Positions 21,255 to 26,348 of a DNA stretch of 64,000 nt are shown in pieces (the stretch's first letter is position 1; each line of letters begins with the position of its first letter). A program made the position numbers and the translations under genes. Under the pieces are notes generated by a model, which was given only the letters and a program-made list of their open reading frames with translations, was not told the origin of the DNA and did not search any database. The stretch is from Planctomyces sp. SH-PL14 (GTDB lineage Bacteria; Planctomycetota; Planctomycetia; Planctomycetales; Planctomycetaceae), in NCBI RefSeq assembly GCF_001610835.1, contig NZ_CP011270.1:806001-870000 (forward strand), read 5' to 3'.

Positions 21255-21580
21255 TCACCGGGGCCAGGGGCCCCTGGTGGGGGATGCAAGGGGGCTCCGA
21301 AAGCACAATACAGTCCCCCTGCCCACCGGAGGCTTGTCTCGTCGGGAACCGTCGTAAGGATTGCGTGTCCGAGCGCGGACACCGTGCTGCATGCCCCCTC
21401 ACCAACCCGCGAGGATTCCAGAGCGGGCGGTGAGTCCTCGACGCCGGTTCCACAAAGGGGAGGTCCGTTGTGTCCCACGGTTCCTCATGGAAGCGCCTCC
21501 GGCGGCAAGGGGGTGAGACCCCCTTGACCCCGGCTGCCGTAGCACGTTGGGTTTGAGGGAACATAGCCGTGCCGGCAAGG
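21255..21580 (-). repeat. Structured intergenic repeat family, copy C
   Basis: A reverse-strand copy. Read on the minus strand it begins with TTGCCGGCAC and has hairpin I (CAAGGGGG/CCCCCTTG, loop TCTCA). Hairpin III here is a near-perfect palindrome, CCAGGGGCCCCTGG. The long-range helix has a G-U pair (CCACCGGAGGC seen on the plus strand). Hairpin II is altered, with a longer AT-richer loop. It lies between the divergent methyltransferase and dapF genes. Confidence 0.88.
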
Positions 21581-21636
21581 ACGTTGGACGATATCCTTTA
21601 GCACTTCCCAGTCGAGAGTCAGTCAGAGTCGAAAAG

Positions 21637-22485
21637 ATGCGTTTCACCAAGATGCACGGGGCGGGCAATGACTACGTCTATGTCAATTGCTTCGCCGAGC
21701 CGGTTCCCGCCGATATCCCCGCCACCGCGATCGCCGTCAGCGACCGCCACTTCGGGATCGGCGGCGACGGCCTCGTCCTGATCGGGCCGTCCGATAAGGC
21801 GGACGCCCGGATGCGGATGTTCAACGCCGACGGGAGCGAGGCCGAAATGTGCGGCAACGCCGTCCGGTGTGTCGCCAAGTTCGTCCACGACCACGGCATC
21901 TGCCGGAAGGACGAACTCCGGATCGAAACGGGGCGCGGCGTCCTCACGCTCCAGCTGCTTGTCGAAGGAGGGAGCGTCCATCGCGTCCGCGTCAACATGT
22001 CGTCGCCGATCCTCAGGAGTGCCGACATCCCGACAACGCTCCCCGGCGATCCACCGGTCCGGGCGCCGCTCGAAGTCGCGGGCCGCAAGCTGGAAGTGAC
22101 CTGCGTCTCGATGGGGAATCCCCACTGCGTCACGTTCGTCGACCAGATCACCGACGAATGGGTCCACGGCGTCGGCCCGCAGATCGAGAAGCACCCCGCC
22201 TTCCCTCGGAAGATCAACGCCGAGTTCGTGCAGGTGCTCTCACGCAGCGAGATCAACATGCGGGTCTGGGAGCGGGGAAGCGGCGAGACGCTGGCCTGTG
22301 GAACCGGGGCCTGCGCGTCGGCCGTCGCGGCGATTCTCAATGGTCTCTGCGACCGGACCGTCCTGTGCCACCTCCCAGGCGGCGATCTGACTCTGGAGTG
22401 GTCCGAAGGGGGAGATGTCTTCATGACCGGTCCGGCGACCGAAGTCTTCTCGGGGGTCTGGAACCCGAGCGGGGCGGTTCGCTAG
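21637..22485 (+). CDS. dapF: Diaminopimelate epimerase
   Basis: A protein of 282 residues starting [16 protein letters not shown]. The two catalytic cysteines are in [13 protein letters not shown] and [13 protein letters not shown], and [11 protein letters not shown]-type and MGNPHCVTF motifs are present (here [14 protein letters not shown]). The enzyme interconverts LL- and meso-diaminopimelate for lysine and peptidoglycan synthesis. Other dap genes are not adjacent; a DapA-superfamily gene lies 20 kb away but is probably not DapA proper. The start is 57 bases after repeat copy C, with no strong ribosome binding site. Confidence 0.95.
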
Positions 22486-22657: not shown

Positions 22658-22760
22658 TTCCTCTTCTTCATCCCTACAGCCAGCAGACCGGGCCGCTGCC
22701 TCGAACGCGACGGGAAAAAATCGCGGGAGATTTCTGTTGAACCTCCGCGCCGAGTGCATT

Positions 22761-22776
22761 ACTGTTGTAATACAGT
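22761..22776. promoter_or_regulatory. Dyad ACTGT-N6-ACAGT immediately before the GntR-family start
   Basis: A perfect 5-bp inverted repeat with a six-base spacer (TGTAAT, itself -10-like) ends one base before ATG 22778. YtrA-type GntR regulators normally bind such dyads in their own promoters, so autorepression is the likely meaning. The close position to the ATG suggests a leaderless or nearly leaderless mRNA. Confidence 0.55.
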
Positions 22777-22777
22777 T

Positions 22778-23176
22778 ATGCAAAGAGACTCACTCCAATT
22801 CCAGGTCAGTCCAACGTCGGGGATCCCGATCTACCGGCAGATCATGGACCAGGTCCGGGCCCTGATCGCCGGCGGGAAAGCCCAGCCGGGCGACGTCCTC
22901 CCGAGCGTCCGCCAGATGGCGGCCGATCTGGGGGTCAACATGATGACCGTGTCGAAGGCCTACGCGAAGCTGGAGGCGGAGCAGGTCGTCGAGCGGGCCC
23001 GGGGCAAGGGGATGGTCATCGCGGCGGCGCTCCCCTCCGGCTCGATTGGCCAGCGGCAGGACGAGATCCGGCCGCACCTGGAGCCGGGGGTCGTCCGGGG
23101 CCGACAGCTGGGACTCTCCGACGGACAGATTCTCGATGTCGTCAAGGAACTCCTGCGGGATACGAATCATGAATGA
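22778..23176 (+). CDS. GntR-family (YtrA-type) transcriptional regulator
   Basis: A protein of 132 residues. The winged helix-turn-helix has PIYRQIMDQVRALIAGG, QPGDVLPSVRQMAADLGVNMMTVSKAYAKLE and ERARGKGMVIA, the classic N-terminal GntR signature. Only a short helical tail follows, ending LGLSDGQILDVVKELL. This short architecture defines the YtrA subfamily, which typically controls adjacent ABC transporter genes. The stop overlaps the ABC ATPase start by eight bases, matching that arrangement. The upstream dyad at 22761-22776 is the likely operator. Confidence 0.92.
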   Translation: MQRDSLQFQVSPTSGIPIYRQIMDQVRALIAGGKAQPGDVLPSVRQMAADLGVNMMTVSKAYAKLEAEQVVERARGKGMVIAAALPSGSIGQRQDEIRPHLEPGVVRGRQLGLSDGQILDVVKELLRDTNHE

Positions 23177-24059
23177 CGTCATTGTCTTCGATCAGCTCGT
23201 CAAGCAGTTCGGACAGAAGACCGTCCTCGACGGTGTGTCGCTCCGCGTTCCGCGGGGGCGGGTCATCGGACTCGTGGGGACGAACGGGGCGGGGAAGTCG
23301 ACCCTCATCAAGTGCCTGCTGGGGCTGCTCAAGCCGACCTCGGGGCACTGTGAGCTGCTCGGTGAAAACTCCTGGACCTTGAGCGACACCGCCAAAGAGC
23401 GGTTCGGGTACGTCCCGCAGGAGGTCCAGCTCTACCCGTGGATGAAGGTGAAGCACCTCGTCCGGTATGTCGGGGCGTTCTACCGCAACTGGGACCAGGC
23501 GTGGGCCGAAGAACTCCTCAACCGCTGGGAGCTTCCGCGGGAGGACCGGTTCGCTCCGCTCTCGACCGGGCAGAAGCAGAAGCTGGCGATCGTGCTGGCC
23601 CTGGCGCATCGTCCGGATGTCCTGATCCTCGACGAGCCGGTCGCGAGTCTTGACCCGGTCGCCCGGCGGCTGTTCCTGGAGTCGATCCTGGAGATCGTCG
23701 AGGACGAGCAGCACACCGTCCTGTTCTCAACGCACATCACGTCGGACCTCGAACGGGTCGCCTCGCACGTGGCGATCCTGCAGGAGGGGCGGATCGTCTA
23801 CAACGACGATCTCGACACGCTCAAGGAACGGGTCAAGCGACTGCGGATTGAGTCCCGCGCGGACCTGCCCGCCTCCTTCGCCATCGCCGGGGCCCTGCGG
23901 TCGGAAGTCCGCGGCCGGCACGCGCTCGTCGCCGTCTCACAGGTGGACGACGCGCTCCTCGACGATGTGGCCCAGCGCTGGCAGGCGACGGTGGAAGTGG
24001 AAGACCTCAACCTGGAAGAGATCTTTCTCGAGATGCATGAGAAGTCCGGGGCCCGCTGA
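23169..24059 (+). CDS. ABC transporter ATP-binding protein
   Basis: A protein of 296 residues. Walker A is GTNGAGKSTLIK, the Q-loop YVPQEVQLYP, the signature LSTGQKQKLAI, Walker B VLILDEPVASLD, and the switch histidine is in FSTHIT. A ~75-residue C-terminal extension after the NBD (NDDLDTLKERVKRLRIE onward) resembles the tail of YtrB/CcmA-type export ATPases. It pairs with the downstream 727-residue membrane protein as its permease. Starting inside the GntR gene, it is translationally coupled to it. Confidence 0.93.
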   Translation: MNDVIVFDQLVKQFGQKTVLDGVSLRVPRGRVIGLVGTNGAGKSTLIKCLLGLLKPTSGHCELLGENSWTLSDTAKERFGYVPQEVQLYPWMKVKHLVRYVGAFYRNWDQAWAEELLNRWELPREDRFAPLSTGQKQKLAIVLALAHRPDVLILDEPVASLDPVARRLFLESILEIVEDEQHTVLFSTHITSDLERVASHVAILQEGRIVYNDDLDTLKERVKRLRIESRADLPASFAIAGALRSEVRGRHALVAVSQVDDALLDDVAQRWQATVEVEDLNLEEIFLEMHEKSGAR

Positions 24060-24164: not shown

Positions 24165-26348
24165 ATGTCGACGAAAGTGCTCAACATTCTGCGGGTCTAT
24201 CTTTCACGCCCCTGGGTGTGGCTGATGGCGGGGCTGGCGCTGCTGCAGGCGGCTCCCGCGGTGACGATCTTCTACGGCATGCGACTCCAGGGGATCGTCA
24301 AGGTCCTGCCGGAGGTCGCGGCGCCGCGGGAGGTCCTGAAGGACTACCGCGAGTTCTTCGACGTCGCCCGCGAACAGCGGCTGGGCCAGGTCGAGGCGAT
24401 CGATCTTTCGAACTCCGCTCCCACGATTCCCGCCACGCCGTTCCGGATTGTCCCGATCCAGCCGACGGGATGGACGATCGAGCCGACCGACGGAACCACT
24501 CCCGGACCGACTTTCGCCGCGCGGGAAGAGATGGGGGTCCTGGTCCATGCGCCGCATCTGCGGTATCTCAAAGCGGACGCCTGTCCGTTTTCGGTTGACG
24601 GTCTTCGTCGTCTGGGGGAACTGAAGCAGCTGAAGTTCCTCTCCCTGCGGAACGCCTCGGCGTCCGACCCCAAGACTCTCGAAGCCGCGAGCGTTGTCGT
24701 CCCCGAAGTCCTCGGAAGACTGTCGGAACTCCGCGAGCTCGACCTGACGAACGCGTTCGCCATGCGCGTCCCGGTCCCTGCCCTTCCTGGACTGACCTGG
24801 CTGGCGATCGGCCCCCGTCTGGACCTGGAGAAGGACCTGCGGCAGCTGGCCCGGACCTCCCCCGCCCTCCGGACGCTCGTCCTGACCGGGGCGTCCAACC
24901 TGCCGCTGACCGAGGGAGCCCAGGACGCTCTTGGCGAGTTCAAGAACCTGCGGGCCGTGTACCTGGACGAAATGCCGGACGGGGCGGCCCTGCGGTCGGC
25001 GCTCGCCTCCCGGTATTCCGGCGTGGCGTTTCCGCGGACCAGCTACCTTCAGCAGCGGGTCTATGGCAGCCTCTACGTGGGGATCGCGCTGATGTTCCTC
25101 AGCATGATCAACTGGTTTCAGGCGCTGGTCGCCTTCGGCATGAGCTTCTCGCGGACGACCCCCGGTTTTGCGCCGGCGCACCTGGGCGTCTCGCTCGTCT
25201 ATACCGCGGGCCTGCTGCTGGTCGGAATCCCGCTGCTGATCTGGCTTGGCACCGATCCGCTCGCCGCCGTGGTCCTCCCACTGACCATCGTCTCGCTGAT
25301 GATCTCTCCGCAGCCGGCGTCCGACGTCACTCCGAGCGGAACGCTGGTCGCGAAGCTGGTCTCCTCCTGGCGATTCCTGGCGATCGGCATGGCGCTGGTC
25401 TCCGTCTACCTGAGCCCGGTCACGGTTGACGCCTTCCTCGCAGGAGAGATGCGGGTTGTCGCGGGCCTGGCCCTGCTGATCGAGATCGCAGCTTCGAGCT
25501 GGGCGCTCCGCCGCCTGACGCGGCAAGCCTGCGTGGTGAGCGAACGCGGGCAGACCAACATTCCCGGACTCATCCCGACGACGCAGACTGCGTGGCAGAA
25601 CCCGATCCTCAATCGCCGCGGCGGGGGGATGGCTCTCACCGAAGGGTGGCAGGACTGGGGATTCGAAAAAGTTCTCGGGCGGTCTCATCTCGGCCTGACG
25701 ACGCTGCTGGCCGCGGGGAACCCCGGCGGCTTCTGGTTCGCCCGGGGGCTCGTGCTGCTGGCGGTCCTGAGCTTCTCGGGGATGATCGTCCAGCGGACCG
25801 GACGGCAGTCGATCGAGGCCGCCGCGCCGTTCCTCATGCTGCAGGGAGGCCTGATCTTCGTGATCTGGATGTTCGCCCAGTGGGTGGCGCGCCGCCCGAT
25901 GCTGTGCTCCGAGTTCCTCCGGCCGGTGACGAGGCAGCGGCTTTACGGCAGCCTGTGGTCCGCCACGGCGATTGACATGGGGCGGATCTTTCTGGTGCTG
26001 ACCATCATGGGGGCAGGAGCCCTGGTGTACCGCAAGGAGGACGGTGAAGTCTGGAGCGTCTTCCTGTTGACGATGGGAGCTTTGTTCCTGCTCGTTCACG
26101 GCTATCTGATGTGGGCCCTCACGGCCCGCCGACTGTGGGTCCCGCTGATCTGCGGAGCGATCACGATCTTCGGGGCTCTGCCTCTTCTGGTGATCATTCC
26201 GGCGACGCTGGTCCCGGATCAGCCTGGAACGCGGGGATCGATCTGGCCGGTCTTCGTTGCTCTGACGGCGGGGATTGTGACGGGGATCGGCCTGGAGGTC
26301 TGGAGGAAGCGCCGCTGGATGCGAATGGAGTTCGCGGCGATCGGGTGA
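24165..26348 (+). CDS. ABC-2-like permease with a leucine-rich insert between TM1 and TM2
   Basis: A protein of 727 residues; GGAG lies seven bases before ATG 24165. One membrane helix (WVWLMAGLALLQAAPAVTIF) is followed by a ~250-residue extracytoplasmic region. That region contains leucine-rich-repeat-like units: LRYLKADACPF, LKQLKFLSLRNAS, LSELRELDLTNA, LRTLVLTGASNLPLT, LKNLRAVYLDEM-type (here FKNLRAVYLDEM). About ten more hydrophobic helices follow, to the end. It is presumably the membrane half of the transporter whose ATPase precedes it by 105 bases. I do not know another ABC permease with this LRR insert, and the substrate cannot be read. Confidence 0.8.
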   Translation: MSTKVLNILRVYLSRPWVWLMAGLALLQAAPAVTIFYGMRLQGIVKVLPEVAAPREVLKDYREFFDVAREQRLGQVEAIDLSNSAPTIPATPFRIVPIQPTGWTIEPTDGTTPGPTFAAREEMGVLVHAPHLRYLKADACPFSVDGLRRLGELKQLKFLSLRNASASDPKTLEAASVVVPEVLGRLSELRELDLTNAFAMRVPVPALPGLTWLAIGPRLDLEKDLRQLARTSPALRTLVLTGASNLPLTEGAQDALGEFKNLRAVYLDEMPDGAALRSALASRYSGVAFPRTSYLQQRVYGSLYVGIALMFLSMINWFQALVAFGMSFSRTTPGFAPAHLGVSLVYTAGLLLVGIPLLIWLGTDPLAAVVLPLTIVSLMISPQPASDVTPSGTLVAKLVSSWRFLAIGMALVSVYLSPVTVDAFLAGEMRVVAGLALLIEIAASSWALRRLTRQACVVSERGQTNIPGLIPTTQTAWQNPILNRRGGGMALTEGWQDWGFEKVLGRSHLGLTTLLAAGNPGGFWFARGLVLLAVLSFSGMIVQRTGRQSIEAAAPFLMLQGGLIFVIWMFAQWVARRPMLCSEFLRPVTRQRLYGSLWSATAIDMGRIFLVLTIMGAGALVYRKEDGEVWSVFLLTMGALFLLVHGYLMWALTARRLWVPLICGAITIFGALPLLVIIPATLVPDQPGTRGSIWPVFVALTAGIVTGIGLEVWRKRRWMRMEFAAIG

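Follow-up and report, generated by a model that had tools for sequence, protein, structure and literature searches.

The closest described counterparts of the locus examined here are ABC transporter operons controlled by YtrA-subfamily regulators, that is, GntR-type helix-turn-helix (HTH) proteins with a very short C-terminal part (PMC5080381). In the S. aureus PSM exporter PmtR-PmtABCD, the YtrA-subfamily gene stands first in the operon, the site of PmtR lies ahead of this gene and overlaps the transcription start, and repression is relieved by PSMs (PMC5080381). ClnRAB from C. difficile has a three-gene layout of regulator and ABC transporter and is induced by LL-37, which is bound by the regulator ClnR; the operon is reported not to contribute significantly to LL-37 resistance (PMC6117091). 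In B. subtilis, the GntR-family protein YtrA represses the ABC operon ytrGABCDEF, which is induced by the cell-wall antibiotics ramoplanin, bacitracin and vancomycin; besides two ATPases and two permeases, it encodes YtrF, a separate protein for solute binding (PMC7828314). In the Cln and Pmt systems it is the regulator on which the effector acts, so sensing at the gene level does not require a loop in the permease. Pmt has two ATPases and two permeases, and we know of no leucine-rich repeat (LRR) in Pmt or in ClnB.

The 64-kb window, by which we mean the whole stretch of DNA analysed, is part of one 8,442,773-base contig and contains a compact unit of this kind in the order GntR repressor, ATPase, permease. 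As in Pmt, the regulator gene comes first, and the three-gene layout is like that of ClnRAB, a likeness by description, no sequence comparison being involved. The regulator (22778..23176, + strand; 132 aa; Pfam GntR E=1.2e-17, residues 19-81) has the size and the N-terminal GntR HTH of the YtrA subfamily; the Pfam scan was run from 22760 in the same frame, and the start codon at 22778 was chosen in this analysis. The start of the second gene, encoding a 296-aa ABC-type ATPase (23169..24059, + strand; Pfam ABC_tran E=4.1e-31), overlaps the gntR stop. The best NCBIfam match of the ATPase is PmtA (NF047565), but at 186.3 bits, below the cut-off of 350 bits for a PmtA equivalog. The third gene encodes an ABC permease of 727 aa carrying an LRR domain (24165..26348, + strand; ORF and translation). 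Unlike the Ytr system, the unit includes no separate solute-binding protein, and one ATPase and one permease instead of two of each.

The GntR-ABC operon context had been noted in a preliminary description of this DNA, and the same gene order was found at the window and, among 54 relative loci that were fetched, in 49. Of the exceptions, L088, L091, L095 and L124 start at or near a contig edge, and in the fifth (L112) the other two genes are absent and the permease part belongs to a chimeric ORF. This ORF (L112:3892-5643) starts as an NAD-dependent oxidoreductase-like sequence, judged by eye, and continues as the permease transmembrane (TM) domain, and nothing in the 10-kb locus matches GntR or the ATPase; the ORF is either an assembly misjoin or a real fusion. 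Directly upstream of the window operon lies a diaminopimelate epimerase gene (dapF, 21547-22485). No two-component pair was found among the four neighbouring genes scanned, which encode DapF, a methyltransferase, an Hsp70 and a glutaredoxin-like protein.

An operator-like 22-bp inverted repeat, GTGCATTACTGTTGTAATACAG (22754..22775, without strand), stops 2 bp short of the start codon of gntR. The pattern GTGTATTAC-N4-GTAATACAC is present upstream of gntR in all 50 loci examined (49 relatives and the window), with at most 4 mismatches out of 18 positions in 49 loci and at most 5 in all 50. Among mononucleotide shuffles, 0.1% have 4 mismatches and 0.5% have 5, a comparison that is somewhat flattering because the repeat consensus was read from the same sequences. 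In the 8.4-Mb genome, the window repeat is the only site within two mismatches of the degenerate pattern, and the backward control gave none. The conservation of the repeat is consistent with a YtrA-type regulator binding upstream of its own gene, and the simplest reading is that the GntR protein would be an autorepressor with a single target.

A possible -35 element, TTGAAC (22737..22742, + strand; read from the sequence), lies 17 bp before TACTGT (22760-22765), which is inside the repeat. In 42 of the 50 loci TTGAC starts 10-21 bases before the repeat; the window is not among these, and its TTGAAC begins 17 bases before the repeat. This spacing suggests that the repeat probably overlaps the promoter. 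A sigma-70 promoter scan of the window locus returned no site by the scan's own criteria. The distance from the end of the repeat to the start codon is no more than a few bases in many loci, so the transcripts may be near-leaderless.

The permease consists of TM1 (residues 16-38; 24210..24278, + strand; AlphaFold2 model), an insert of about 255 residues that is probably extracytoplasmic (residues 39-295; 24279..25049, + strand; model, profile, structure comparison and charges), and a transmembrane domain comprising TM2-TM12 (residues 296-724; 25050..26336, + strand; hydropathy, model and charges). The layout proposed earlier for this ORF, one helix followed by an LRR stretch of about 250 residues and then further helices, is thus confirmed, with two corrections to the counts: eleven helices follow the insert by hydropathy and the AlphaFold2 model, instead of about ten, and the predicted strands and helices give six to seven LRR units, instead of five or six. 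TM1 is unlikely to be a cleaved signal peptide, as a TY-x-x-R motif and a hydrophobic helix are also N-terminal in members that lack the insert. Y12 of the window permease is nearly invariant in an alignment of 50 members.

By sequence patterns, the insert contains four matches (two overlapping) to the strict pattern L..L..L.[LIVF] against 0.21 expected, and none of 5000 shuffles reached four. A loose leucine pattern is mildly enriched (7 vs 3.0 expected, p=0.03) and is non-specific, because 13 matches also occur in the membrane part of the permease. The window protein alone matches Pfam LRR_14 weakly (E=0.0028; 16.9 bits against a curated cut-off of 40), and at E<=0.1 LRR_14 is found in 23 and LRR_4 in 15 of the 50 members. 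A five-member family profile matches solved LRR proteins with E down to 5e-10.

Structure prediction, which the preliminary description had suggested as a check, gave an LRR solenoid. The full-length AlphaFold2 model, built on five sequences, has a mean pLDDT of 60.9 overall; means over 10-residue blocks are 73-91 for residues 131-300 and 40-49 for the low-confidence part of the insert at residues ~81-120. Short strands are predicted to start at residues 134, 158, 191, 212, 237, 264 and 293, and a helix of 4-17 residues comes after every one of the first six, which gives the six to seven repeats stated above. Comparison of this model with solved structures listed 50 matches at Z 13.3-17.4, all LRR proteins by title, the best among those listed being Skp2 (1fs2_A; Z 17.4, rmsd 4.2, 212 residues aligned). 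The aligned length in the matches listed is 168-212 residues, except for the 41st, which has an rmsd of 20; most of them cover residues ~55 to ~294, and some extend to ~419-432. Foldseek with the same model gave a best E of 1.0e-4 and five matches at E<=0.001, all to Skp2. The weak single-sequence Pfam match and the mild enrichment of the loose pattern would also fit chance leucine repeats in a fold of another kind, but against this stand the AlphaFold2 model, the Pfam matches across members, the family profile, the structural matches and the strict pattern. We therefore reject a chance pattern, a reading to which we assign next to no probability, and confidently predict the insert to be an LRR solenoid spanning about residues 55-294, best predicted from residue 131 on.

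The charge distribution was used to place the insert relative to the membrane. Across the 50 members, K+R exceeds D+E in all seven predicted cytoplasmic segments (9.9-23.3% vs 1.3-10.9%), for example at the N-terminus (18.8% vs 1.6%) and in the loop at residues 575-596 (23.3% vs 10.3%). The opposite holds for four of the five short outer loops, the exception being the loop at 545-554 (10.8% K+R vs 8.1% D+E), while the insert itself is balanced (10.2% K+R vs 11.3% D+E). As the loop borders were taken from the model, this test is not independent of it. The distribution is consistent with the extracytoplasmic position claimed earlier, and the LRR is probably outside the membrane.

The TM domain gave no Pfam, NCBIfam or PDB sequence match naming a permease, and no FtsX, ABC2 or other permease Pfam model was matched by the window protein up to E=1 or by the 50 members at E<=0.1. 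Alignment of the TM domain with 16 planctomycete PF12679 permeases by hhalign (E 0.054) was no better than reversed controls (0.085, 0.25). A structure model of the TM domain alone was poor (pLDDT 55). For residues ~507-724 of this low-confidence model, the best alignments among those listed were to LptF/G (Z 10.6) and CcmB (Z 9.3), both six-TM ABC exporter parts, followed by APH-1, MATE and MurJ (7-9), and the LptF/G and CcmB scores lie within the range common for helical proteins in structure comparison. Foldseek with the TM-only model gave no match at E<=0.001, with WzxE and MATE heading the matches listed.

Two cytoplasmic loops are conserved. The TM2-TM3 loop (residues 325-340; 25137..25184, + strand) contains PGFAPAH at 333-339, in which P333 and H339 are nearly invariant among the 50 members. 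The TM8-TM9 loop (residues 576-593; 25890..25943, + strand), RRPMLCSEFLRPVTRQRL, is a proposed coupling helix, in which R576, E583, P587 and R590 are nearly invariant. From topology and conservation, the permease is read as two six-TM halves with the loops PGFAPAH and EFLRPVTR at the place of the coupling helices. A duplication of the two halves was not detected (E 0.042, vs 0.11-0.15 for three reversed controls); a fourth control, the second half against its own reverse, gave E 0.0023. The TM domain defines a planctomycete permease family without a Pfam model.

To survey this family, a profile of the TM domain alone (A4, 13 rows) was searched; relatives came from 52 of the 170 genomes in the family to which the window belongs and from 13 of 392 in a phylum sample. 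A profile including the LRR (A1) had matches in 132 of the 392 genomes, but most of those listed span only model positions ~100-280 and are other LRR proteins. No paralogue was found in the window's own genome, where the search matched the window gene only, and a plasmid search with the permease protein gave no match. A scan of genome contigs with a single pattern gave three records that were already known from the other searches; the three relatives that bear names are Planctomycetota MAGs. From 54 loci, 60 permease ORFs were collected, and after 11 truncated, split or unsure ones were dropped, the remainder and the window protein made up the 50 members. Among the split genes, the permease occupies two frames in L085, parted close to where the LRR ends, and in L117, parted within the TM domain; both are either broken genes or assembly errors.

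The preliminary description had also proposed to look for the same insert in homologues: 38 of the 50 members carry one of 204-290 residues at the same TM1-TM2 site, and in the other 12 TM2 comes after TM1 with no such insert between. Being present or absent at one site, the insert behaves as a cassette. Leaving the window protein aside, 19 of 37 inserts are enriched in the strict leucine pattern (p<0.05); the others are taken as LRRs from alignment and profile matches. A tree of the TM domain (quick method, long branches flagged) requires four changes of insert state vs 10.9 in shuffles, two of them forced by well-supported branches. L107, a member from genus g16 that lacks the insert, clusters with two members from its genus that have the LRR (support 98), which makes a change of state close to the genus level likely. 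Insert-less members retain both the operon and the repeat, so the core function does not depend on the LRR.

In L046, L102, L108 and L121, two or three tandem permease genes lie behind one ATPase, with the insert present in the first two loci and absent in the last two; the tandem permeases possibly form heterodimeric pumps. PF12679 permeases are abundant in the relatives' genomes (L133-L162), with 4-18 matches per genome in 25 genomes. Of 30 ORFs from PF12679 loci, 18 are longer than 700 residues and have >=10 hydropathy segments, and in all of these ~144-247 residues separate the first segment from the next, so an insert site between TM1 and TM2 is in itself usual.

In 44 close pairs, the mean identity was 54% for the LRR and 51% for the TM part, and these pairs gave no sign of faster LRR evolution or of an obvious arms race. 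Module-wise identity was found among four permeases of genus g35 (L095, L099, L100, L101), compared in 40-residue windows. L099 and L100 share 82% identity in the first window, 35-52% in those starting at 31-151 (most of the LRR), 68-70% at 181-211, and 85-100% in those starting at 481-691. L095 and L099 share 88-95% in windows 31-181 and, from 481 on, 35-66% in seven of eight windows, with 85% at 571. The LRR (~31-240) and the C-terminal part (~470-720) of the g35 alleles thus change identity independently. At the sequence level these mosaics fit recombination of modules, with uneven divergence as the alternative.

We hypothesize that the locus is a self-repressed three-gene ABC exporter unit in which the LRR gives the pump its specificity, the best explanation of the whole, for which we put the chances at about even. 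The small YtrA-type GntR protein would bind the inverted repeat at its own promoter and keep the operon low, until an inducer, likely an amphipathic peptide or another envelope-active compound, lifted repression. The ATPase, as a dimer, would then drive the permease, and the LRR, on the outer face between TM1 and TM2, would recognise a protein or peptide, either the substrate or a periplasmic partner, and so set the specificity of the pump. On the best reading, by analogy with the described systems, the unit would export an envelope-active, perhaps peptidic, compound. In favour of this explanation are the conserved gene order and repeat, the predicted LRR fold, the charge-consistent topology and the single insert site. 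Against it count the retention of operon and repeat in members that lack the LRR, the similar conservation of LRR and TM part in close pairs, the inserts without enrichment of the strict pattern, the TM domain matching no known permease family by profile and having a poor model, and the small contribution of the ClnRAB operon to LL-37 resistance. The peptide- or antibiotic-sensing exporter suggested in the preliminary description is supported in part, through the predicted solenoid, its probable place outside the membrane, the GntR-ABC operon and the shared insert site, with the sensing of peptides or antibiotics a conjecture. In a bolder version, which we consider doubtful, the LRR would be a specificity cassette that can be swapped, being gained, lost and replaced through recombination between species, and would recognise foreign or envelope-active peptides outside the membrane and hand them over to the pump or trigger it.

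The main rival of the exporter reading is mechanotransmission, in which no substrate is moved and ATP hydrolysis shifts the LRR, itself docked on a periplasmic partner such as a hydrolase, an adaptor or an envelope protein, as in FtsEX or MacB. MacB and FtsX carry large periplasmic domains between TM1 and TM2, the place occupied here by the LRR, and LRRs typically bind proteins. The adjoining peptidoglycan-precursor gene dapF points the same way, as does the reported thickening of the B. subtilis cell wall upon Ytr overexpression (PMC7828314). However, the four neighbouring genes scanned include no candidate partner, and some twelve TM helices would be a large number for a protein that only transmits. 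We regard mechanotransmission as possible but somewhat unlikely.

A role of the LRR as no more than a spacer or structural cap, passive and with no specific ligand, is less probable still. The absence of the insert from 12 members with the same operon would fit such a role, as would the small number of state changes in the tree. Yet the other 38 members keep 204-290 residues at one position, in close pairs the insert is about as conserved as the TM part, and one genus has two distinct LRR types on otherwise more similar permeases. The exporter unit with an LRR that sets specificity remains our preferred reading.

What is already known are large outer domains between TM1 and TM2 in ABC permeases, as in MacB and FtsX; the novelty seems to lie in an LRR serving as the outer domain, and doing so as a variable cassette in a permease family without a Pfam model. 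No description of an LRR in an ABC permease was found in the open-licence PMC literature, judged by titles and the beginnings of abstracts. LRR domains are classic recognition modules in plant and animal immunity and in bacterial adhesins, and an LRR as the outer domain of ABC permeases would, if true, be a new route to pump specificity. Because members that have the insert and members that lack it both occur in nature, the role of the LRR can be tested directly, and with a compact unit and one apparent operator in the genome, the inducer could be sought with a simple reporter.

The insert has the solenoid fold in common with Skp2, FBXL17, internalins and Leptospira LRR proteins, but their LRR domains belong to no transporter. 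Among transporters, the BceAB permease has an extracellular loop of 200-250 residues, a likeness to the window permease in size only. BceB, an FtsX-type permease, has this domain between TM7 and TM8 and is partnered by a two-component system. The preliminary description had called the permease analogous to but different from BceB. The analogy holds for loop size and fails for the FtsX type and the BceRS linkage, since the window permease has no FtsX match and no two-component pair among the four neighbouring genes scanned; it differs from BceAB in carrying an LRR, at the TM1-TM2 site, under a GntR regulator.
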